Shown here piece by piece: positions 30,017 to 53,802 of a stretch of 64,000 nt of DNA. The notes below the pieces were generated by a model that had not been told where the DNA came from, did not search any database, and saw only the letters and a list, made by a program, of their open reading frames with translations. How positions within the stretch are numbered: position 1 is the first letter of the stretch; each line of letters opens with the position of its first letter. The stretch is from an uncultured Veillonellaceae bacterium. GTDB taxonomy: Bacteria; Bacillota; Negativicutes; Selenomonadales; Selenomonadaceae. A program made the position numbers and the translations under genes. Location of the stretch: NCBI GenBank assembly GCA_902801565.1, contig CADCIX010000026.1, positions 1-64,000 of the forward strand, written 5' to 3'.

Positions 30017-31699
30017 CTACTCCAGCCACACTTTTTTACCACAGAAAGCAATGCCATACTTCCATACGACTGCCACTCCCTGACGGGATAGTTCCGTTTG
30101 ATAAGCCTTTACCTCAATCTGGGCCAGAGCCTCTTTTGCCGCCTGCTCCATCTCGTCCTCTTCCTTAACAGTTTTTAGCTCCAGAATCACTCCGGGCATA
30201 TTTTCCCGCTGTGGAAATAAGGCGATATCAAAGCGACCATAGCCGCTTTCTTTGTTAGATTCTACCCGATACCGCCCCTCCAGCCAGACAGACAGGCCCA
30301 GGAGCAGGCCATGATAGAAGCTTTCATGATTGTAACCACTGTCATGGAAACTTACGAAATCCCGCAAAAGCTCCGACAGGTACCTGGCAAAATCCTCTGC
30401 TCTGCCTTCTGTCATTGCCTCCAGCAGGTCCATAAGGACAATCTGGCCTTGATGGGGAACAATGTTTTCCAATATCTCGTCTTCATAGGCACAGCTTATC
30501 TCCAGATTCGGTATCTTCAAGGCTGCCCAATCCCTGGACCTTTCATCCTTCCAAGTTTTCACGGCCTTCAAATAGCCAGAGGTCAAGAGCATCATGTAAA
30601 GAGTATTGCGATCAGAGTTCAAATCGGCATAGATAATGTTTTCTCTGAGCGGAGTGCTGATAGCTTTCCCCTCCAAGAGTTCCATCAAATCCGCTTCCTT
30701 TCTGGCATCAATACGACCCAGCAACGTCTTTAATATGCTGTTCCCTGATGTGTTCAGCCAGTAGGGCTGGAATTTACAGCTATTCCTTATGAAGTTGATT
30801 ACCGACCAGGGATTGTAGATTTCTACATTGCCAAATTGATAGCCATCATACCAACGCTTCAGCTCCGGCATCTTGTCCGCGACTTCGCAGACAGTCATGA
30901 GTCTTTCCGCCTCCGCCTGTGTGAAGCCAAAAATGTCCGCATAGATATCGGACAGGACACCGCACACATCCAGATTGTTCAGTCCGCTGAAGATGCTTTC
31001 CTTGGACACCCGCGTCACCCCGGTAAGCACAGCAAAGTCCAACGCCTCATTGGTCTTCAATGCCTCGCTCAAGAATCCCCGCATAAAGTCGATGCAGTCA
31101 TCGTAGTAGCCACGCTCCCAGGAGGAGATAATGGGAGCATCGTATTCATCGAGGAGCAGCACCGCTTCCCGTCCATGATGCTTTTGCAACATAACCAAAA
31201 GTTGCTTCAGTGAAATTTGCGTCTCACTACGATTGGAAGTTTTGTCGATAATACGTCTGAAAAAGAGCTTGTCATCCTCTGCCACAACAGGAGACTCCAA
31301 AAGATAACGGAATTGGCCGTAAAGCCCCCTAAGCATTTCTTGCAAACTTTCCTGCATCAGTTGGTAGTCCGGACCCTGTATTCCCTTCAGGCTCAAAAAT
31401 ACCACAGGACGGCTGCCCTGCTCCCGCATGTACTCTTCCCCTGCCCGTTCAATATCCAGCCCCGCAAAGAGCTCCCGGTTCTTTTCCCCATTCTCCACAG
31501 CAAAGAAGTACCGCAACATGGAGAGGTTCAGCGTCTTGCCAAAGCGGCGGGGCCGAGTGATGAAAGTAACCTTGCTGTGACCATCCATGATTTCTTTGAT
31601 AAAACGGGTCTTGTCCACAAAGCAATAATTTTTCCTTACAATCTCCCGAAAATCATCCACGCCTATGGGCATGGTCTTACGTTCGGTTCTTACGCTCAA
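30017..31699 (-). CDS. AAA-ATPase-like protein with DUF1703 nuclease-like domain
   Basis: 560 aa. N-terminal PIGVDDFREIVRKNYCFVDKT and the P-loop variant ITRPRRFGKTLNLSML (AAA-ATPase-like, PF09820 type), Walker B AVLLLDEYDAPI. The C-terminal domain has GRFDIALFPQ...VILELK, the D-(X)n-E-L-K core of PD-(D/E)XK nucleases (DUF1703 type). Members are numerous in anaerobes and lie among mobile and defence genes; function not established. The start is probably TTG at 31699 (GGGGAGG eight bases before); GTG at 31708 is alternative. Confidence 0.88.
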   Translation of the reverse strand: MSVRTERKTMPIGVDDFREIVRKNYCFVDKTRFIKEIMDGHSKVTFITRPRRFGKTLNLSMLRYFFAVENGEKNRELFAGLDIERAGEEYMREQGSRPVVFLSLKGIQGPDYQLMQESLQEMLRGLYGQFRYLLESPVVAEDDKLFFRRIIDKTSNRSETQISLKQLLVMLQKHHGREAVLLLDEYDAPIISSWERGYYDDCIDFMRGFLSEALKTNEALDFAVLTGVTRVSKESIFSGLNNLDVCGVLSDIYADIFGFTQAEAERLMTVCEVADKMPELKRWYDGYQFGNVEIYNPWSVINFIRNSCKFQPYWLNTSGNSILKTLLGRIDARKEADLMELLEGKAISTPLRENIIYADLNSDRNTLYMMLLTSGYLKAVKTWKDERSRDWAALKIPNLEISCAYEDEILENIVPHQGQIVLMDLLEAMTEGRAEDFARYLSELLRDFVSFHDSGYNHESFYHGLLLGLSVWLEGRYRVESNKESGYGRFDIALFPQRENMPGVILELKTVKEEDEMEQAAKEALAQIEVKAYQTELSRQGVAVVWKYGIAFCGKKVWLE

Positions 31700-31754
31700 A
31701 TCTGCCACCTCCCCAGTTCCCTGTTAAATGCTGTATTTTCTTTCTATTCTACCA

Positions 31755-31779
31755 CAAAAACCCCGCCATTACAGCGGGG
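31755..31779 (-). terminator. Hairpin upstream of the DUF1703 gene
   Basis: CCCCGC and GCGGGG around a 7-base loop; on the minus strand followed by GTTTTTG. It lies about 60 bases upstream of the ATPase start and may stop transcripts entering from the right. Confidence 0.6.
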
Positions 31780-31943
31780 ACAACTATATCAGTGGATAAA
31801 ATTCGTGGGAACCCATTCGTAAGCGTCAAACAATCAGGCGGATTCTATTCCATCCTCCCATGTGAGATAATGTTGCCAATCAAGGCAACCAAGTTTTTCC
31901 AGTTATCACAGTTTATTGAATCTCTGGTATGGGAGGATTCTTT

Positions 31944-32255
31944 ATGACCGAAATTCAAAGAGCCAAGCACGAAGTGTCGATGCGTTTTTGGAAGGAGGTT
32001 ATCATGAATCCACATCCTGCCCAGCCGGAGCAGGATACCAAGGCAGAACCGTTACCAGCCAAGCACATGGATATCGTTCCGTTTGCGGAGGCTCTGGATA
32101 TGGCAAAGGTCGAGCCTGGGGTTGCAGCACTTCCGGCTGTGCCGTCCATTACCATACACTGCGGGAAAATGGACATAGATATCCGGGACGGCACATCGCA
32201 AGAGCTTTTGCGCATGGTCATGTCACTTGCTGGCGAGGAGGCGACATTATGCTGA
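31944..32255 (+). pseudogene. tnpA: IS66 TnpA-like protein, internally deleted
   Basis: 103 residues from the ATG at 31944 (GGGAGGA before it). The first 17 residues (MTEIQRAKHEVSMRFWK) and the last ~35 (ITIHCGKMDIDIRDGTSQEL) match the two ends of IS66 accessory protein TnpA. The helix-turn-helix normally between them is missing and replaced by a Pro/Glu/Ala linker. Confidence 0.65.
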
Positions 32256-32314
32256 TCCGCAAGCTGACAGCCAATCACGTTTACATCATCTGCGGCTACT
32301 CCCCAGATCAGTGA
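32249..32314 (+). pseudogene. tnpB: IS66 TnpB 5' stub
   Basis: Twenty-one codons reading MLIRKLTANHVYIICGYSPDQ, stop (21 residues; key part VYIICGY matches the TnpB start VYLxCGYTDMR). It is cut after CGY by the junction with the neighbouring ATPase gene. The start overlaps the tnpA stop as in intact IS66. Confidence 0.7.
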
Positions 32315-33452
32315 ACGGATCATCATCCATGGTGATAACAATTTTTTTGTAACCGTCATCCAAACGCCTGAAGGAACCGACCTCGCGCTCCCGTGTCTTC
32401 TCGTCCACCAGTGTATAAGAAACCTGAATATAGAAAGTATCCTTCATGTTTCTGGCTATGAAGTCAATCTCCTTCTCTTCATTCCTGCCGATATCTACTA
32501 TGAATCCACGATGCAAGAGCTCCGTATAGACAATGTTCTCGATTGTGTGAGTAGGTTCTATCTGTCGGAAGCTCAGGAACGCATTGCGCAGCCCTATATC
32601 CACGGCATAATACTTGTACAGCGTCTTCAGATAGGCCTTTCCCTTGATATCATATCGGTTGGCCCTGTAAAACAGGAAAGAGTCACAGAGATGATCTATG
32701 TAGCTGCCAATAGTCTTGTGGTCTACTGTCGTGTGCCCGCTGCTTTTAAGTGTTGCCGCTATCTTACGGCTGGACACATAGGATCCGATACTGGAGCATA
32801 TAAGGCTCAGCAAAGCCCGCAATACCTCTTTATTACGGATGCCATAGCGTTCAACGATGTCATCCGTAACCACTGTCTCCGTGATGGTCCGCAGATACTC
32901 AGCCTTCTGCATAGGATCCGTTTCTTGAAGCAGGTAAGGCATCCCGCCATACATCATGTAATCATTGAATGCCTTGCGCTTATCGCCCTGGCAAAAGCCA
33001 TAATACTCACTGAAGCTCAACGGGAACATTTTCAGCTCAATGCCACGCCCCCGGAACTTGGTATTTATGTCCGTGGACAAGAACTTGGAGTTTGAACCGG
33101 TTATATAGACATCGCAATCAAAGTCCCGCTTAATGCCGTTGACCACATCCTCGAAGTCCTTTACCAGCTGGATCTCATCCAGGAAAACATAGTAGCGTCC
33201 CTCTCCCTGCATCTGCTGGGCAAGGTGCTGATAAAGACTTTCTGGTTCCTTCAATGCCGCATTTTTGATATTGTCAATGGCTACCTTGATGATATGGTCA
33301 TCAGGCACGCCATCTTCCAGTAGGTGCTGATAATACAGGTTAAACAGCAGCGTCGATTTTCCACATCGCCTAATACCTGTAATGATCTTCACCAAGTCTT
33401 TATCCTTTTGCTTATGCAGGCGCTCTAAGTACAAATCACGCTCAAGTATCAT
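32286..33452 (-). CDS. AAA ATPase with DUF4143, C-terminus altered
   Basis: 388 aa. Walker A GIRRCGKSTL, Walker B YYVFLDEIQLV, sensor ITGSNSKFLS, then the DUF4143 domain with ENIVYTELLHRGF and the nuclease-like EIDFIARN. The reading frame ends GSSRR inside IS66 DNA, so the last residues are foreign and ~15-20 native ones are probably lost. The ATG at 33452 has AAGGGGTGG before it. The promoter is overlapped by a perfect 16-base-arm palindrome. Such ATPases are common in anaerobes without a settled role. Confidence 0.85.
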   Translation of the reverse strand: MILERDLYLERLHKQKDKDLVKIITGIRRCGKSTLLFNLYYQHLLEDGVPDDHIIKVAIDNIKNAALKEPESLYQHLAQQMQGEGRYYVFLDEIQLVKDFEDVVNGIKRDFDCDVYITGSNSKFLSTDINTKFRGRGIELKMFPLSFSEYYGFCQGDKRKAFNDYMMYGGMPYLLQETDPMQKAEYLRTITETVVTDDIVERYGIRNKEVLRALLSLICSSIGSYVSSRKIAATLKSSGHTTVDHKTIGSYIDHLCDSFLFYRANRYDIKGKAYLKTLYKYYAVDIGLRNAFLSFRQIEPTHTIENIVYTELLHRGFIVDIGRNEEKEIDFIARNMKDTFYIQVSYTLVDEKTREREVGSFRRLDDGYKKIVITMDDDPFTDLGSSRR

Positions 33453-33473
33453 GTTGTCCACCCCTTTATCTTA

Positions 33474-33520
33474 ATTCTATTCCCCAAAATGCCTTTTTTC
33501 AAGTATTTTGGGGAATAGAA
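33474..33520 (-). promoter_or_regulatory. Promoter overlapped by a perfect 16-base-arm palindrome
   Basis: Arms TTCTATTCCCCAAAAT (33475-33490) and its exact complement (33505-33520), 14-base loop. Minus-strand TTGAAA (33497-33502) lies in the loop and TAGAAT (33474-33479) in the gene-proximal arm, 17 bases apart. The start codon is 22 bases away, so the palindrome is both operator-like DNA and a hairpin at the 5' end of the message. Confidence 0.7.
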
Positions 33521-33530
33521 CATCTTCTGA

Positions 33531-33776
33531 TCAGGATATGACCTGCTGTGCCCTTTCTGCTTGCACTGCCCGCAATATCGTTGACCGGCTGAGGCCCGTG
33601 GCCTTACATGCTTCCTTATAGCTCTTTCCATCGAGAATCATGGCCACTGCCGCATCCTTCCGGGCCTTTGGAAGAGGTCTCCTTCCCTCCCTGTATCCAG
33701 CATGTGTCCCGGCAATCTCCCTGCCAGCCTGTGTACGCTCAATGATAAGATCCCGCTCAAATTCCGCGAAGGCCAC
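33531..33776 (-). pseudogene. Serine recombinase (resolvase/invertase) C-terminal fragment
   Basis: 81 residues starting AFAEFERDLIIERTQAGRE, the E-helix end of small serine recombinases, followed by the DNA-binding HTH SYKEACKATGLSRSTILRAV. The catalytic N-terminal ~110 residues are absent and an in-frame TAG lies just upstream, so it is a remnant. Confidence 0.8.
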
Positions 33777-33790
33777 CTGCTACAAAACGT

Positions 33791-33805
33791 TCAAGTTTTG
33801 ACGCA
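33791..33805. repeat. 15-bp direct repeat, left copy
   Basis: TCAAGTTTTGACGCA, identical to 35160-35174. The pair brackets the AAA/DUF4143 gene at 33838-35073 and its promoter. Confidence 0.7.
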
Positions 33806-33837
33806 AAAGCCGCCTCCTTTTCGGCACGGCCGAAAAA

Positions 33838-35073
33838 TCATATGTACTCAACAGGCAAGGCCACCACCCGCTCGTTAAGCCATAACTTTTGTGAATACAT
33901 ACAAAGAACAATACCCAGACCACGGCGGTGATTCTTGATTTTGTCTATGACATCAAAGGAATTTGTCATTGTCAGCTTGGGATTCGCAGACATCTTTATC
34001 TCTACAGGGTAGATAGTATCTCCATCCTCAATCAGCAAATCTATCTCTGATTCGCGCTGCTCCGTCTTATCGCGCCCACGGTAATAGCTAACATTCATCC
34101 TATAGTCGACACCTGCATTGGAAAAGGACTTCAGAATCTCCGAAACAACAAACGTCTCGAAAAGTTCTCCAGACATGGCACCGTTCATAGCCAGTTCTGG
34201 TGTCAGGTACTTTGCCAGGTAACAGACAAGGCCTGTATCCCTGAAATACAGCTTTGGGGTCTTTATCGCCCGCGACAAAGCAGAATTTGAGAACGGCGGC
34301 AAAATATATACAAGCCCTGATGCCTCCAGCACCGATGTCCACTCCTTGGCCGTCGCTACCGTAACATCCGCCTGTTCTGCCACCTTACTATAGTTCAGCA
34401 TCTGTCCTGTCCTTGCAGCCATAGCCGTAAGGAAGCGCATGAACTTCAACCGATTCTTTACCTGCAGAAGATCATTGACATCACGATCCAGGTAAGTCTT
34501 TACATATGATGAATAGAACAGCTGCCAGTCCACATCAGCCTTATAGAGTGCCGGGTAGCTTCCTTTATGAATCAAAGACCATATATGCTGGTGAGGTCTG
34601 AAATGCTTGCCACGCTGCTCTATGTATGCTTCTGACGGTATAAATGGCTGATGGAAGTCAATGCCATCAATTTCCCGCAACGACAAGCCTGAAAGCTCAA
34701 ATATGGCTATGCGCCCAGCCAATGACTCCGAGACATGCTTCATTAGCTGGAATGACTGAGATCCTGTCAAAAAAAATATTCCCCTCTCATCTGATGCATC
34801 ACAAGCCATCTTTATGTAAGGAAAAAGCTCTTGTATATGTTGAACTTCGTCAAGCGTGATAGGATAAGGATGGTTCCGGAAGAAAAGCCCTGGCTCCGTA
34901 CGGGCCTGCTCCAAGATTAATGGGTCATCAAAGGTAAGATAAGGCCTATCTGGGTATACATGCCCCAGAAGCGTCGACTTGCCAACCTGCCGCGCACCAG
35001 TCACAAGCAACGCCTTAAAAGCTCGGTCAGCCTGTTGAATATAGGATTCCATGTGCCTCTTGATATAATCCAT
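33838..35073 (-). CDS. AAA ATPase with DUF4143 domain
   Basis: 411 aa, full length. Walker A VTGARQVGKSTLL, Walker B ITLDEVQ, sensor FFLTGSQSFQLMK, arginine region in RIAIFELSGLSLRE, then DUF4143: LYFRDTGLVCYL, GELFETFVVSEI and the nuclease-like core SEIDLLIEDGDTIYPVEIK (D..EIK). The start at 35073 has GAAGGGA before it; the frame upstream to 35175 crosses the promoter. It carries a perfect palindrome over its promoter, and 15-base direct repeats bracket the whole unit like a cassette. Confidence 0.88.
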   Translation of the reverse strand: MDYIKRHMESYIQQADRAFKALLVTGARQVGKSTLLGHVYPDRPYLTFDDPLILEQARTEPGLFFRNHPYPITLDEVQHIQELFPYIKMACDASDERGIFFLTGSQSFQLMKHVSESLAGRIAIFELSGLSLREIDGIDFHQPFIPSEAYIEQRGKHFRPHQHIWSLIHKGSYPALYKADVDWQLFYSSYVKTYLDRDVNDLLQVKNRLKFMRFLTAMAARTGQMLNYSKVAEQADVTVATAKEWTSVLEASGLVYILPPFSNSALSRAIKTPKLYFRDTGLVCYLAKYLTPELAMNGAMSGELFETFVVSEILKSFSNAGVDYRMNVSYYRGRDKTEQRESEIDLLIEDGDTIYPVEIKMSANPKLTMTNSFDVIDKIKNHRRGLGIVLCMYSQKLWLNERVVALPVEYI

Positions 35074-35087
35074 AGCAAATCCCTTCT

Positions 35088-35135
35088 CCGGCAAATTTAT
35101 AGTACAAGTATAAATTTGCCGGAATACATTGTCAA
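35088..35135 (-). promoter_or_regulatory. Promoter overlapped by a perfect 14-base-arm palindrome
   Basis: Arms CCGGCAAATTTATA (35088-35101) and complement (35109-35122), 7-base loop. Minus-strand TTGACA (35130-35135) and TATACT (35107-35112) are 17 bases apart, so the -10 sits at the palindrome centre. The ATG is 14 bases from the arm. Same layout as the operator of the related gene at 32286-33452, but with a different arm sequence. Confidence 0.75.
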
Positions 35136-35159
35136 GCACAAAATAAAGCAACACTCTCG

Positions 35160-35174
35160 TCAAGTTTTGACGCA
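35160..35174. repeat. 15-bp direct repeat, right copy
   Basis: TCAAGTTTTGACGCA, identical to 33791-33805. It lies upstream of the AAA/DUF4143 promoter. Confidence 0.7.
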
Positions 35175-35194
35175 TCCACCCCTGCGGGGAATCG

Positions 35195-38577: not shown

Positions 38578-38780
38578 GGTCATGAGGATTCGTTGCCCGC
38601 CTGTCAAACAGGCATTTCTGTCAGGCAGACAGGGGCAAACTCCGCAAACTGGCTGTGACATTTGGAGCGAGGACCCTTCGGTATGGCGTCGGAGAGCGTA
38701 ATTTTTCTTGTGCAGCAGGATTTTTCCTGTCGGAGTGGAATTCGTATAGGGAATACTTGAGCGAGGAGGATGCCGGAATC

Positions 38781-41564
38781 ATGAAGGAATCAGAGCAGAA
38801 AATTGCTGCAAAAGCCTTTGCAGAGAAATGGAATGGCATAGGGGACGAGAAGCAACACACCCAGACCTTCTGGCTGGAGCTTTTGCAACAGGTCTATGGA
38901 GTGGAACAACCCTTTGGCTTTATCACCTTTGAGGACACCGTGAAGCTGGGGCATGTCTCTTTCATTGACGCAACGATTACCGAAACCCATGTAATGATTG
39001 AGCAGAAGGGGCTTGGGAAAGACCTATCGAAGCCCATCAAGCAGTCAGATGGCACCATGCTCACCCCCTACCAACAGGCGAAACGCTATGCCGCCGAACT
39101 TCCCTACTCCAAGCGTCCCCGGTGGATTGTAGCGTGCAATTTCGGGGAGTTCCGTGTGTATGATATGGAAAATCCCCAAAGCGAGCCGGAGATTATTTTG
39201 CTCTCCAATCTGCCGAAGGAATACTATCGCCTACAGTTCCTCGTCAATGCCGCCGACCGCAATATCAAAAAAGAGATGGAACTCTCCCTTGCTGCAGGGG
39301 AAATTGTGGGAAGACTTTACGATGCCCTTCGTAAACAGTACAGGGAACCGGACAGCGAGGAGTCTCAAAAAAGCCTCAACAAACTCTGTGTACGATTGGT
39401 ATTCTGCCTTTATGCCGAGGATGCCGCTATCTTTGGCAAGCGGAATATGTTCCATGATTATCTCATGGGATTTCGGGAGAAAAATATCCGGCAAGCAATC
39501 ATCAATCTGTTTGAAACGCTCTCCACTCCGATGGAGGAACGCGACCCTTATATGGATGCTGAACTGGCGGCATTTCCCTATGTGAACGGCGGGTTGTTTG
39601 AGGATAGCCGTAACGACTTGCAACGCCAAATTCCCCAGTTCACCGATGAGATTCTCTCCCTTCTGCTAAAAAATGCCAGTACGGATTTCGACTGGAGTGG
39701 CATATCCCCCACCATCTTCGGCGCAGTTTTCGAGTCCACCCTCAATCCCGAAACCCGCCGCAAGGGCGGGATGCATTACACCTCCATACCGAACATTCAC
39801 AAGGTCATCGACCCTCTCTTTCTGGACGGATTGAAGCGGGAATTTGAGGATGTGAAATCCGTCAAGACGTCCAAGCTACGGAAGCAAAAACTCTCCGATT
39901 TCCAAGAAAAACTGGCATCTTTGACATTTCTGGACAGTTCCTGCGGCTCCGGGAATTTCCTCACCGAAAGCTACATCTCCCTGCGCCGCTTGGAGAACGA
40001 GGTCATCAGCGAAATTCAGAACGGCGAGATTTCCTTCGGCTTCGAGGGGGAGCACAATCCCATCCGGGTGAGCATTTCCCAGTTTTACGGCATCGAAATC
40101 AATGACTTCGCCGTAACGGTGGCAAAGACGGCTCTATGGATTGCCGAGAGCCAAGCCATGCAGGAAACGGAGAACATCATCCATTTGAATCTCGACTTCC
40201 TTCCGCTGAAAAGCTACACAAATATTGTGGAGGGGAATGCCCTGCGGATGGATTGGAACAGTGTTGTTCCAAGAGAAAAGCTGGACTACATCATGGGCAA
40301 TCCTCCCTTTGTTGGCTATGCTTATCAAAGTAATACACAAAAAGAGGATTTGAAGATAGCAACTGGATTGTCTGCAAAAAATCTGGATTATGTTGCCGCA
40401 TGGTATTTCAAAGCGGCCGTCTATATGCAGGAGACCAGCATTGAAACTGCATTAGTTTCAACCAATTCCATCACACAGGGAGAACAGGTAGCTGTGATTT
40501 GGAAACCCCTCATGGAGAAACACAATGTCCGTATCAAATTCGCACATCGTCCCTTCCGTTGGGATAGCGAATCCAATGAAAAAGCGCATGTTCACTGCGT
40601 TATCATAGGATTTGACACACAAAGCACAAAGGTTTCCTGCCATCTGTATTCAGGTGACCAAATGCAGATTGTAGATAATATTAGCCCGTATCTCGTGGCA
40701 AGTCCAACTGCATTCATTGAGAAACGAAATCAGCCGATTTGTCATGATGCGCCTCCTATGATTCGTGGAAGTCAGCCAACCGATAATGGAAACTTAGTGC
40801 TGACGCAAGAGGAACGGGATTCCTTATTGCAAGTCGAACCACAGGCAAAAAAATTTCTGCGTCCTTTTATGATGGGAAAAGACTTCATTGATCGCAAGCC
40901 TCGATACTGTTTATGGTTGTTAGGAGCAAACCCTGCGGAACTCAAAAAATGCCCTCATGTTCTGAAACGCATCGATGCTGTGCGAGAATTTCGTCTTGCA
41001 AGCAAAAAAGCGGCAACACGAAAAAAAGCAGACACGCCTATGTTGTTCGATGAAATCAAGGAGTGTAGGACAAATTATGTTGCTGTCCCAAAAGTATCAT
41101 CTGAACAACGTCGCTATATCCCTATGGATTATCTGCAAGCAAATGTTATCGCAGGTGATATGCTGTTCATGATTCCAGATGCTACTCTTTATCACTTTGG
41201 AGTTTTGATGTCCAATGTACACATGTCATGGATGCGCGCGGTTTGCGGAAGATTGGAAATGCGATATCGTTATTCCAACTCCGTAATTTACAACAACTTT
41301 CCTTGGCCATTCCCCAATGAGAAGCAACGTACCACCATTGAACAAACTGCACAAGGAATCCTCCATGCCAGAAACATTTATCCTAATGCAAGTCTTGCTG
41401 ACCTCTACAGTGAAAGTCTCATGCCGCCGGAACTCCGCAAAGCCCACCAAGCCAATGACAGGGCAGTTATGCTTGCCTATGGGTTCGATGTGGGGAACAT
41501 GACTGAGGCGGGATGTGTGGCAGAATTGATGAAGATGTATCAGAAAATCGTTCTTGACATTTGA
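38781..41564 (+). CDS. MmeI-like type IIL restriction-modification enzyme
   Basis: A single chain joining endonuclease and adenine methyltransferase, 927 aa (MmeI is 919). Nuclease domain with D63...E74-Q-K76 (FIDATITETHVMIEQKG), helical connector, methyltransferase with AdoMet motif FLDSSCGSGNF (383-393) and catalytic NPPF (507-510), then a target-recognition domain (~600-800) and C-terminal helices (RYSNSVIYNNFPWPFP is typical). One such protein both marks and cuts DNA. The ATG at 38781 has GAGGAGG; 126 bases of open frame upstream are ignored. It is followed 16 bases on by a DUF4365-like gene. Confidence 0.9.
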   Translation: MKESEQKIAAKAFAEKWNGIGDEKQHTQTFWLELLQQVYGVEQPFGFITFEDTVKLGHVSFIDATITETHVMIEQKGLGKDLSKPIKQSDGTMLTPYQQAKRYAAELPYSKRPRWIVACNFGEFRVYDMENPQSEPEIILLSNLPKEYYRLQFLVNAADRNIKKEMELSLAAGEIVGRLYDALRKQYREPDSEESQKSLNKLCVRLVFCLYAEDAAIFGKRNMFHDYLMGFREKNIRQAIINLFETLSTPMEERDPYMDAELAAFPYVNGGLFEDSRNDLQRQIPQFTDEILSLLLKNASTDFDWSGISPTIFGAVFESTLNPETRRKGGMHYTSIPNIHKVIDPLFLDGLKREFEDVKSVKTSKLRKQKLSDFQEKLASLTFLDSSCGSGNFLTESYISLRRLENEVISEIQNGEISFGFEGEHNPIRVSISQFYGIEINDFAVTVAKTALWIAESQAMQETENIIHLNLDFLPLKSYTNIVEGNALRMDWNSVVPREKLDYIMGNPPFVGYAYQSNTQKEDLKIATGLSAKNLDYVAAWYFKAAVYMQETSIETALVSTNSITQGEQVAVIWKPLMEKHNVRIKFAHRPFRWDSESNEKAHVHCVIIGFDTQSTKVSCHLYSGDQMQIVDNISPYLVASPTAFIEKRNQPICHDAPPMIRGSQPTDNGNLVLTQEERDSLLQVEPQAKKFLRPFMMGKDFIDRKPRYCLWLLGANPAELKKCPHVLKRIDAVREFRLASKKAATRKKADTPMLFDEIKECRTNYVAVPKVSSEQRRYIPMDYLQANVIAGDMLFMIPDATLYHFGVLMSNVHMSWMRAVCGRLEMRYRYSNSVIYNNFPWPFPNEKQRTTIEQTAQGILHARNIYPNASLADLYSESLMPPELRKAHQANDRAVMLAYGFDVGNMTEAGCVAELMKMYQKIVLDI

Positions 41565-41580
41565 CATTGAGGCGATAGGC

Positions 41581-43212
41581 ATGAGTGAAAATGTGGGTGG
41601 CTATACTGAAAACGACTTCAAGGAACGAATAGGAATTAATCTATTTGAGCGTATGCTTTACGATTCAAGAAGGGCAATGCCATTTATTGCAACCAATGAC
41701 AAAACGCCCAACTTCGACGGGTATTTTGACATATGTGATTATGACGGAAAAAAATTCGTTCCATTAATTAAAATAAATGTTCAGGTAAAAACTCTTCCCC
41801 TAAATTATTCTAATGGCCTTCTCAGGGGGAATAATATACACAAGTATAAATATAAATGTGATACAAAGCCATTGTTTTCAGTTATAAGAAAATATAGTTT
41901 AGATTTAGTCTTCCTGATTTTGGTTGATATAAATAAAAATCGTGTATTTTCTCTTCCAATTACCCATGATTATTGTAAATTTTTGCACCTAAATCCAAAG
42001 CAAGAAAGCAAAACGCTTTATTTCGATGATAAAGAGAAGATTGGGGATATTCACAAATGGCTTTTGTCAATAACAGAATTAAGAGAGAAGGCAGATACTA
42101 TGCACAATAATCCCGAAGCATTGAAGTATCTTGTACCGGAAACAATGGGAATCCCCAAACATGTAAGTGATGCTTTTCATTACATTAATGAAATGGTAGA
42201 TAAAGAATTTTGGTTCCTAAAAAAATTCCTGTTTCCTAAAATATGGAAATTCGGATTGGCTTATACACCAGAAGAAGGAGAAAATGAGGAAACCATTGGA
42301 ATATTTGAAATCAAGAAGGGACGCAAAGGAAAATTTATCCGTCGCTTCAATAGAAAAGCAAATGCACATTTGTATGAGATACACTCAAAAGGATTTAGCA
42401 TAAGGAATTCCATTAATTCTATTGCATCTGATTGGATTGAAGTATTTGTAGAGAATATGGATAACTTTTACGATTTTGTCCCTAATATTGTATTGGAAGA
42501 GCGTTTTTTTGAACTCTTGGATAAAAGCTGCAACTCAAATATGAAAAATGCCTCAGATGGCGAAACTGTCACTTTACACTATCCTTCAGATGAGGTTGAT
42601 ATTTTTGAAGTGTGTAATTTAGTGAAATCAATTGCAAGTAAGCCATCAGATACACAATTAGTAGAGGAACTGCAAAAACGGGGCATTACACATTGCAAGC
42701 GGACTTGGAAAGTTCCATATCAGTATGTAGCAAAAAGAAAAGATGCACATTGTATGCACTTTGAACATTTTGAAGATGAAGAAACCATGAAAATTGAGAA
42801 CAAGCGTCGATTTATAGAACAACTGGATTCTATATGCAAAGAAATCATAGGCCGATTTGGAAAGAAGTCAGAGAAAATATTCCAACTAAATGACTATACA
42901 TTCCTTTTCAATAATAAATTATCATGCTTCAGATGTATTATCAAGAATCAGTCTGCATTTAACATTACATTTTCTATTGAGGATACGGACGAATTTCATA
43001 TACGCGATAAAGAGTTTTTTCAAGAAAGAACTCCTCAAGAAACATCGAGATACAGTATGTTATACGACATAGAATTTTCATGGTATGTTTTTTGGAAAAG
43101 ATACTGTATTTCATCATTCCAAAATTATTTGAATGCGGCAGTTCACGCAGAAGTTAAAGATGCACTATGCGAAAGTTTATCTGGTAATCGAATTATCTCG
43201 AAGTGCAAGTAG
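41581..43212 (+). CDS. DUF4365-like putative nuclease, AT-rich
   Basis: 543 aa, unlike its neighbours in base and codon use (visibly AT-rich). The N-terminal ~160 residues show FKERIGINLFERML, PNFDGYFDI and NVQVKTLP, a D...Q-V-K core like DUF4365 and other PD-(D/E)XK folds. The middle and C-terminal parts (from about 180) are unfamiliar and lack membrane segments. It starts 16 bases after the MmeI-like gene (GAGG eight bases before the ATG), so the two are co-transcribed. A defence role is inferred from context; it may have been acquired separately given its composition. Confidence 0.75.
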   Translation: MSENVGGYTENDFKERIGINLFERMLYDSRRAMPFIATNDKTPNFDGYFDICDYDGKKFVPLIKINVQVKTLPLNYSNGLLRGNNIHKYKYKCDTKPLFSVIRKYSLDLVFLILVDINKNRVFSLPITHDYCKFLHLNPKQESKTLYFDDKEKIGDIHKWLLSITELREKADTMHNNPEALKYLVPETMGIPKHVSDAFHYINEMVDKEFWFLKKFLFPKIWKFGLAYTPEEGENEETIGIFEIKKGRKGKFIRRFNRKANAHLYEIHSKGFSIRNSINSIASDWIEVFVENMDNFYDFVPNIVLEERFFELLDKSCNSNMKNASDGETVTLHYPSDEVDIFEVCNLVKSIASKPSDTQLVEELQKRGITHCKRTWKVPYQYVAKRKDAHCMHFEHFEDEETMKIENKRRFIEQLDSICKEIIGRFGKKSEKIFQLNDYTFLFNNKLSCFRCIIKNQSAFNITFSIEDTDEFHIRDKEFFQERTPQETSRYSMLYDIEFSWYVFWKRYCISSFQNYLNAAVHAEVKDALCESLSGNRIISKCK

Positions 43213-43423
43213 AGTATGTATCAAGCTACTATACGCAATGGGATGAAAAAATGGTAAGCACCATGCACGAACGATTTCTACAAACCTCATGATTCGTCAT
43301 GTAACCCAAATTCCCCCTCCCCAAAAAATTAGCAACTTTATAAGAAACCAAAAAAAGACTCTTCCTCCATACTAAGAGTGTGCGGAGGGAGATTTTTTAT
43401 TGGCCAGAGAAAGGAGGCACACG

Positions 43424-43609
43424 ATGGAACAGGCTTACAGCGGGGACACCCGCACTACAGAAGAACATACCAAACACCACCTGTCCTTGGAGGAACAGTT
43501 GGCACAGCTTGAGGCAAAGGACAAGAAAGCGAAGGAGACGGAGGCACGGCGCAAGGCGAGGATGGCGAAACTCCGCTCTGCCCTGCCTTCGCAGAAACGG
43601 AAGGCATAG
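43424..43609 (+). CDS. Small charged protein of mobile-element type
   Basis: 61 aa with AAAGGAGG before the ATG. A Thr/His-rich start (TRTTEEHTKHH) leads into a Lys/Arg/Glu helix with LSLEEQLAQLEAKDKKAKE and QKRKA. It resembles the small proteins upstream of mobilisation genes in integrative elements; here the usual C-terminal extension is cut by a stop at 43607-43609. Function unknown. Confidence 0.5.
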   Translation: MEQAYSGDTRTTEEHTKHHLSLEEQLAQLEAKDKKAKETEARRKARMAKLRSALPSQKRKA

Positions 43610-43618
43610 GCGCAGGGG

Positions 43619-43795
43619 CTTCGTTTTTCGGATTTCCTGCGGGAACGGCTGACTGGCGACAAGCAGGAGATTCATGAGGCAGGAATGGAGGAATTTGCAA
43701 AAGTAAAGGCATCATTCCCGAAACGCTCTCGATGGAACGAAGCAAAGCCCTGCTCCATCGAGTTGCCGACAGTGTGCAAAAAGCGAGAGCCATAG
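43619..43795 (+). pseudogene. Remnant open frame after the small charged gene
   Basis: The frame reads FSDFLRERLTGDKQEIHEAG with MEEFAKVKASFPKRS and runs without a start to a stop at 43793-43795. Its acidic/basic helix pattern looks like coding DNA, probably the tail of a mobilisation-region gene. Weak support. Confidence 0.35.
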
Positions 43796-44336: not shown

Positions 44337-44520
44337 ACTATTCTCCTCCAATAGATATTTGTCTTTAACGATTTTCCCATTAAATATATTCTCCATTGGG
44401 AAAGATTGTTCCTGCCCATGGCTGGATTTTATTTCTCGACAAACCTTTGAAAAAAAGGGAGATGCATTCGCCCCCACCACACGATTGTGACCTCAATATG
44501 ACTTTTTAGGGAAATTTCTT

Positions 44521-44686
44521 CTAGTGTCCCACCTCGTTCAGAAACATAAAAATAATTGTTCGAGATGTAGTCAGATGCTAGGAAGAGGAGGGCGGCGTAG
44601 CGGTGGCTACGCCAACTCTGACGATGACAACGCAGATGACTGCATATCGGGCAATTATTATGGATATGAACGAGGCGGGACACTAG
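44521..44686. mobile_element. MITE with IS630-like ends, copy 1 (166 bp)
   Basis: It starts CTAGTGTCCCACCTCGTTCA and ends with the matching TGAACGAGGCGGGACACTAG, ~35-base terminal inverted repeats with a few differences. CTAG at both ends fits IS630-type insertion into CTAG with TA duplication. No coding frame; the interior folds on itself (GGCGTAGC-GGTG-GCTACGCC hairpin). It is about 32 bases longer than the copy at 53155-53288 and in the opposite orientation. Intergenic insertion. Nothing else is seen between 44337 and 44779. Confidence 0.88.
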
Positions 44687-44779
44687 GCACTTTTTTCTCT
44701 GAGAAGAAGGAAAATCATTGCTCCTGCTCGAATTTTGAAAAATTGATAATTTCTAATTCTACAAAGGAGTTCTTGCATC

Positions 44780-52882: not shown

Positions 52883-53802
52883 TTACTTTGTTCGATACAG
52901 AATAGCAAAGATGCAGTTCAAAAGATAGAAGATAGCAGTCTGTGAATAAAATGTCGCCATTTTCTTGTCGTAATAATGTTCCCGATCCGGAAAGGTCAGC
53001 ACCATCTGGAATCCTGTCACATCTTTCGCTGCCGTAATCAGTACCGTCCGGACATTCCGTCGTTTCATCTGGAGAAGCTGTGCCGCGGAGGGAATGCTCT
53101 TGCCGGAATATGATACGCATAAAAAGAAATCACCCTTTTCCATGATCCTTATCCTAGTGTCCCGCCTCGTTCATATCCATAATAATTGCCCGATATGCAG
53201 TCATCTGCGTTGTCATCGTCAGTTGGCGTAGCCACCGCTACGCCGCCCTCCAATTATTTTTATGTTTCTGAACGAGGTGGGACACTAGCATTGATCTCCT
53301 TGTGTTCATCTGCATCCATGGCCCGGATGCCAAGCTTCATCAAGCGGTTGGCAAATCCTTGGACGGTCAGGAGCGTATCACCGGCCGCATAATAGTAAAC
53401 ATGAGGTGCCTCCCGCATCCATGCCGCAATCCTTCCCAAAGCAGGAGCCAAGGACAGTCCCTTCATTGTCTGGAGGGTCTCGCCCATCAGATCAGAGATG
53501 GCTCCTGTGATATCATCGATACTGTCGCCTTCCCCAAGAGGGAAATCCATGTCGACAGATTTTCCCTCCTGCCTTTGCCTCTCCGATTCTTTGATGATCT
53601 GTAGCCTGAGCTCACGATATCCCCTCACTTCCAATTTCTTGCATAACCTCATGATGCTGGCATTGGATGTGAAGGTATCCTGTGTCACCTTGGAAATTGT
53701 AAGGTTTGACATCTCGTCCTTGTGTTCCAGAAGATATCGGACGATATTCTTTTCGGATTCCGTAAAATTTTCCTGTCTGGAAAGCTTTGATAGAATAGAC
53801 AT
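52883..53802 (-). pseudogene. RpiR-family regulator interrupted by a MITE
   Basis: The 5' part (53802 to 53289) encodes the HTH domain: MSILSKLSRQENFTESEKNI, TISKVTQDTFTSNASIMRLC, and the start of the sugar-isomerase (SIS) domain YYYAAGDTLLTVQGFANRLM, ending DADEHKEIN. The 3' part (53154 to 52883) continues RIMEKGDFFLCVSYSGKSIP with QLLQMKRRNVRTVLITAA to the native end. A 134-bp MITE lies between. Removing it with one TA restores EINARIRIMEKGD in frame. Intact length would be about 260 aa. RpiR proteins sense phosphosugars; the target is unknown. Confidence 0.92.
53155..53288. mobile_element. MITE with IS630-like ends, copy 2 (134 bp), inside rpiR
   Basis: Ends CTAGTGTCCCGCCTCGTTCA and TGAACGAGGTGGGACACTAG, CTAG at both borders. 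It is the reverse complement of copy 1 (44521-44686) with a ~32-base deletion next to one arm. The shared interior includes CTGCGTTGTCATCGTCAGT and the hairpin GGCGTAGC-CACC-GCTACGCC, similar to element A at 15024-15181. Confidence 0.9.

Follow-up and report, generated by a model that had tools for sequence, protein, structure and literature searches.

An MmeI-family restriction enzyme and a DUF4365-like nuclease-domain gene in close tandem: probable independent defence cargo of a decayed mobilisable element

Introduction

Type IIL restriction enzymes of the MmeI family carry out both restriction and methylation with a single protein, cutting about 20 bases from their recognition site and methylating one strand. 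The structure of MmeI with DNA has been solved as one protein, its catalytic residues are D70, E80 and K82, and MmeI enzymes need no partner (PMC4833311). Another group of nucleases carries the DUF4365 domain, which has been placed in the Mrr subfamily of PD-(D/E)XK nucleases (PMC6299218). Its representative TmuRE has a Q-x-K form of the core, with Q62 and K64 proposed as the active site, and degrades DNA nonspecifically in complex with a short Argonaute (PMC10810196).

Representatives of both kinds appear to lie next to each other in the DNA analysed here, a stretch of 64,000 nucleotides (the window). The upstream gene encodes an MmeI-family enzyme, and the downstream gene (the partner) encodes a protein with a DUF4365-like N-terminal domain joined to a C-terminal region that belongs to no known family (Table 1).

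Table 1. Features of the locus, with window positions
Feature	Position	Strand	Evidence
Left flank: DnaC-like gene fragment, 77% identical to the copy on contig C45 of the same genome	38332-38559	+	blastn to L054:2580-2809
Type IIL MmeI-family restriction-modification enzyme, complete, 927 aa	38781-41564	+	Five Pfam domains; phmmer to 5hr4
Junction, 16 bp	41565-41580	+	Sequence; terminator scan
Partner gene, 543 aa: DUF4365-like putative nuclease and C-terminal region without known family	41581-43212	+	Open reading frame, relatives, composition
Partner N-terminal putative PD-(D/E)XK domain, DUF4365-like (first ~175 residues)	41581-42108	+	Motifs, P0001 PF14280 match, profile search
Partner C-terminal region, 360 aa, without known family	42130-43209	+	Family searches; one full-length relative
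Right flank: deletion-scarred mobilisation module (MobC-like and relaxase)	43333-43768	+	blastn to L053

Results

The upstream gene encodes an MmeI-family enzyme

Pfam finds the complete set of five MmeI domains (MmeI_N, hel, Mtase, TRD and C) above their cut-offs in a single chain, and a phmmer search aligns the solved MmeI (PDB 5hr4) with residues 9-923 of the protein (E=8e-188). The layout comprises an N-terminal nuclease, a helical spacer, a gamma-class N6-adenine methylase, a target recognition domain and a C-terminal domain. Both sets of catalytic motifs are intact. Specifically, the nuclease motif reads D63...E74-Q-K76, with D63, E74 and K76 corresponding to D70, E80 and K82 of MmeI in the alignment to 5hr4, and the methylase carries FLDSSCGSGNFL and NPPF. 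A longer, mechanically called open reading frame begins with a GTG at 38655; homology with MmeI relatives begins not there but at the ATG at 38781. PADLOC labels the gene a type IIG restriction-methylase. Judged by its sequence, this is a member of a known family and an ordinary, self-sufficient enzyme.

The partner is a long, AT-rich reading frame

The earlier note had described two genes separated by 16 bases, and this arrangement stands: the MmeI-family gene ends with a stop at 41564, and the partner begins with an ATG at 41581. A terminator scan of the junction found no hairpin of the terminator type, and a GAGG about 10 nt 5′ of the partner ATG is a plausible ribosome site. The spacing of 16 bp suggests that the two genes are probably co-transcribed.

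From its ATG to the stop at 43212 the partner frame contains no internal stop, and its start is backed by an alignment in which the N-termini of two relatives match. The frame of 543 codons is far beyond chance, because shuffling the partner sequence 500 times gave no open run above 148 codons. As the note had also observed, the partner is far more AT-rich than its surroundings, with 33.2% GC compared with 47.3% for the MmeI-family gene and 51.5% for the window. It has the lowest value of any stretch of its length, all remaining 1632-bp stretches of the window having at least 45.4% GC, and its relatives are likewise AT-rich (28% GC).

A nuclease-like core precedes a C-terminal region with a single relative

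The core motifs of the partner are DKTPNFDG, which includes D46, and VQVKT, which includes Q68 and K70. These three residues are invariant in an alignment of four divergent proteins, where they lie within D-K-x-P-N-x-D-G and V-Q-x-K motifs, so that the D...QVK core named earlier is confirmed. The likeness to DUF4365 is genuine, though it stays under the Pfam threshold. A relative that is 45% identical to the partner (P0001) matches PF14280 over residues 43-159 (E=0.0043), at a score of 17.6 bits that falls below the cut-off of 24.3, and the partner protein itself had no match in Pfam or PADLOC searches. The match under threshold leaves some doubt on the fold of the partner. Weak NCBIfam and PHROG matches, among them the NCBIfam match of the partner, were taken as chance. 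Since the D, Q and K residues are invariant, the Q-x-K form is that of TmuRE, and DUF4365 is placed in the Mrr subfamily, we predict with good confidence that the N-terminal domain is a nuclease.

The C-terminal region is 42% identical in the single full-length relative, and family searches detected neither relatives beyond this MAG protein nor any known reader domain. Sequence searches that could have pointed to an APAZ domain after the nuclease matched neither a family nor the sequence of a solved structure. The previous description of this region as unknown is upheld apart from one MAG homologue. Structure prediction, which had been recommended as a check, was run on the whole partner and on the C-terminal region and was of little help. 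The AlphaFold models, built from two sequences, are too weak both for the whole protein (pLDDT 34.7) and for the C-terminal region (pLDDT 49.4), to which no fold could be assigned; Foldseek searches returned nothing at E<=0.001.

Relatives of the partner

The only full-length relative of the partner (45% identical) occurs in a Selenomonadaceae rumen MAG (G046 = L003/L009). Its gene lies on contig C51, with a phage-type integrase and a TnsA-like gene on one side and a Pol Y gene on the other. This places it at the integrase end of a prophage, which has terminase, portal and capsid genes. Two further proteins from the same class are related to the N-terminal domain: a stand-alone protein of 237 aa (L006) and the N-terminus of a protein of 1099 aa (L126:5840-9139, genome G243), in which the DUF4365-like domain is joined to the PADLOC candidate PDC-S53 SF1 helicase. 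The gene for the latter protein sits inside a cell-surface sugar gene cluster. Because the nuclease domain occurs in the partner, as a protein of its own and in fusion with a defence-candidate helicase, it appears to behave as a mobile effector module.

Searches of 50,697 phage and 72,556 plasmid records gave no match to the partner. Scans with short exact peptide patterns, which are of limited sensitivity, found no partner match in IMG/VR and the MAG relative alone in GTDB contigs; the searched databases hold one genome per species. A weak match in one other genome (G218, E=0.007) contains one internal stop. Phylum-wide profile matches in two more (G557 and G613) were rejected, there being no matching open reading frame in either and one locus lying among ribosomal-type genes.

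The pair is seen in one genome

The earlier note had proposed that the pair could form one composite unit of defence, with the partner adding a second defence activity or a control role, and that repeated co-occurrence of the two families would speak to this. Among 189 genomes of the same family, MmeI homologues are present in 95 and the partner in two, namely the window genome and the rumen MAG. The three MmeI loci of the MAG are on contigs C55, C68 and C153, and contig C51, which carries the partner homologue, has no MmeI match. We examined 85 downstream neighbours of MmeI genes (27 + 58), each with at least 700 bp of downstream sequence, and none (0/85) is a DUF4365-like gene. Furthermore, tblastn searches with the partner and three other relatives of the nuclease domain against 92 MmeI loci returned nothing at E<=0.1. 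The pair is therefore seen in the window genome only, and the sole full-length relative of the partner lies beside a prophage integrase without a linked MmeI gene. This is the outcome that the note had named as speaking against the pair. These results support neither the composite unit nor control of MmeI by the partner, with the proviso that the absence of recurrence rests on two full-length partners. Where only two are known, a functional link may be lineage-specific.

DNA homology with the nearest MmeI relative, whose protein is 75% identical, spans positions 38788-41540 and stops at the end of the MmeI-family gene. Because the homology ends at the 3′ end of this gene, the junction marks a module boundary.

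Other MmeI homologues have close downstream genes of different kinds. One is followed by a SEFIR/TIR_2 gene at -14 bp (L036), one by a CAP12/Pycsar TIR gene after 2 bp (L069), one by an overlapping YhcG nuclease gene (L016), and one by a tightly linked Bro-N gene (L014). The first three, which are effector-type cases, are anecdotal among the 85 neighbours, and the survey covers MmeI neighbours only.

Remnants of mobile elements on both sides

The pair is flanked by gene fragments that have fuller or similar copies elsewhere in the same genome; their names (MobC-like, relaxase, DnaC-like and, below, serine recombinase) were read from translations and not from a family search. On the left, the DnaC-like fragment matches an element on contig C45 in which relaxase pieces and a serine recombinase are also present. 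On the right, three pieces of the mobilisation module match contig C29, where the module is more complete, with identities of 93%, 84% and 88% (L053 4730-5001, 5408-5471 and 7193-7256, respectively). Directly upstream of the C29 module are an Eco57I-type methylase and a PDC-S53 candidate SF1 helicase (L053:58-4669). Because the C29 module adjoins this other methylase and helicase, the slot holds different defence cargo. The flanking genes are also present in two congeners (G001 and G002) without the pair; no clean empty site was found in either, synteny around the site being broken. By their sequence similarity, the flanks look like remnants of a decayed mobilisable element. Overall, defence genes seem to be exchanged as cargo next to related mobile elements, and the nuclease domain seems to pass from one architecture to another.

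Two other features of the window were recorded. An interspersed repeat of ~168 bp at 44519-44687, with a copy on the minus strand at 53153-53288, forms a single long hairpin (-90.9 kcal/mol, z=-11.1) and is a MITE-like palindrome with the ends CTAGTGTCCC...GGGACACTAG. Over 30 copies of this repeat, complete or partial, occur in the window genome, and two congeners have further copies; Rfam gave no match. Also, three consecutive open reading frames at 30017-35175 on the minus strand resemble AAA ATPase-type proteins, and the one of the three that was scanned (33838-35175) has AAA_14 and DUF4143.

Discussion

The explanation that we consider likely is that the two are independent defence genes, brought together as neighbouring cargo of a decayed mobilisable element, with the partner acting as a gated nuclease and not as half of a dedicated pair. 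The MmeI-family enzyme would methylate the host's DNA at adenine within its target and cut foreign DNA that is unmethylated. The partner would be an independent, low-GC gene of the defence type, in which a lineage-restricted C-terminal region gates an N-terminal nuclease. The analogy of DUF4365-APAZ proteins suggests that the partner would be switched on only once this region has sensed a sign of an invader or bound a trigger, and would then cut nucleic acid, such that the invader is restricted or the cell is stopped. On the same analogy, gating by a C-terminal sensor or partner-binding region is most likely; a defence role for the partner is also most likely, as far as sequence comparison can tell. 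Independence of the partner from MmeI is favoured by the missing recurrence: because the two genes are together only in the window genome, they would have come to lie side by side by landing rather than as a composite system. Against this independence, a spacing of 16 bp is compatible with translational coupling and may be functional.

That spacing, with its one probable transcript, is also what speaks for a composite unit, in which MmeI would mark self DNA and the partner would serve as a reserve nuclease against DNA that is unmethylated or has been cut by MmeI, or would be triggered when phage inhibit MmeI. Close effector-type genes next to other MmeI genes (L036, L069 and L016) are consistent with such a unit, but we judge it quite unlikely, given that the pair does not recur among the 85 neighbours, that the full-length relative of the partner has no linked MmeI gene, and that MmeI enzymes, one of which was solved with DNA as one protein (PMC4833311), do not need a partner. 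The same linked cases would fit a broader arrangement in which MmeI genes are a platform that repeatedly gains linked effectors of varying type, kept silent by MmeI or by its methylation until a block of MmeI sets them free. If this were true, the partner would count as a novel effector whose sensor region is novel too; we consider it very unlikely. Also very unlikely is a role in policing MmeI methylation, with the partner as a regulator or as a modification-dependent (type IV-like) nuclease that would, for example, cut wrongly methylated DNA. The partner does adjoin a methylase, and the Mrr-subfamily placement of DUF4365 (PMC6299218) would suit this role, but the full-length relative is unlinked to a methylase and the C-terminal region has no detected reader domain of a known type.

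An origin from a prophage differs from our main reading, with which it overlaps, solely in the home that it assigns to the gene. The partner would be a phage or mobile-element nuclease, used in superinfection exclusion or in competition between elements, that was captured by chance beside MmeI. The position of the MAG relative at the integrase end of a prophage, the low GC content of the partner and the mobile-element remnants on both sides of the pair all point in this direction. However, neither the 50,697 phage and 72,556 plasmid records nor the IMG/VR pattern scans gave a match, and we regard this origin as unlikely. Cargo of a decayed mobilisable element, comprising two independent defence genes, is thus the reading we prefer.

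The findings indicate that the pair is not a recurring system. They also record a rare architecture, a DUF4365-like nuclease domain with a C-terminal region that has no known relatives, and reveal that one genome can have differing defence cargo next to related mobilisation modules.

Comparison with known systems

The MmeI-family gene has full-length homology to MmeI (PDB 5hr4) and shares with it the five domains, the D...ExK nuclease motif and the NPPF methylase motif. It differs from MmeI in its diverged target recognition domain and in the unrelated gene that comes after it.

For the partner, the DUF4365-APAZ proteins of short Argonaute systems (SPARDA/TmuRE-Ago) offer a likeness in the N-terminal D...Q-x-K nuclease-like domain followed by a longer C-terminal region. 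The partner differs from them in falling under the Pfam cut-off, in having no adjacent Argonaute, and in a C-terminal region without detectable similarity to any family. Identity with SPARDA was set aside, there being no Argonaute gene nearby and the neighbours being MmeI and mobilisation remnants. The G243 helicase protein (L126:5840-9139) has equivalents of D46, Q68 and K70 as in the partner, whereas its C-terminal part is an SF1 helicase in place of the 360-aa region without known family. On these sequence comparisons, the nuclease domain of the partner is of a kind already known, and its architecture is rare.
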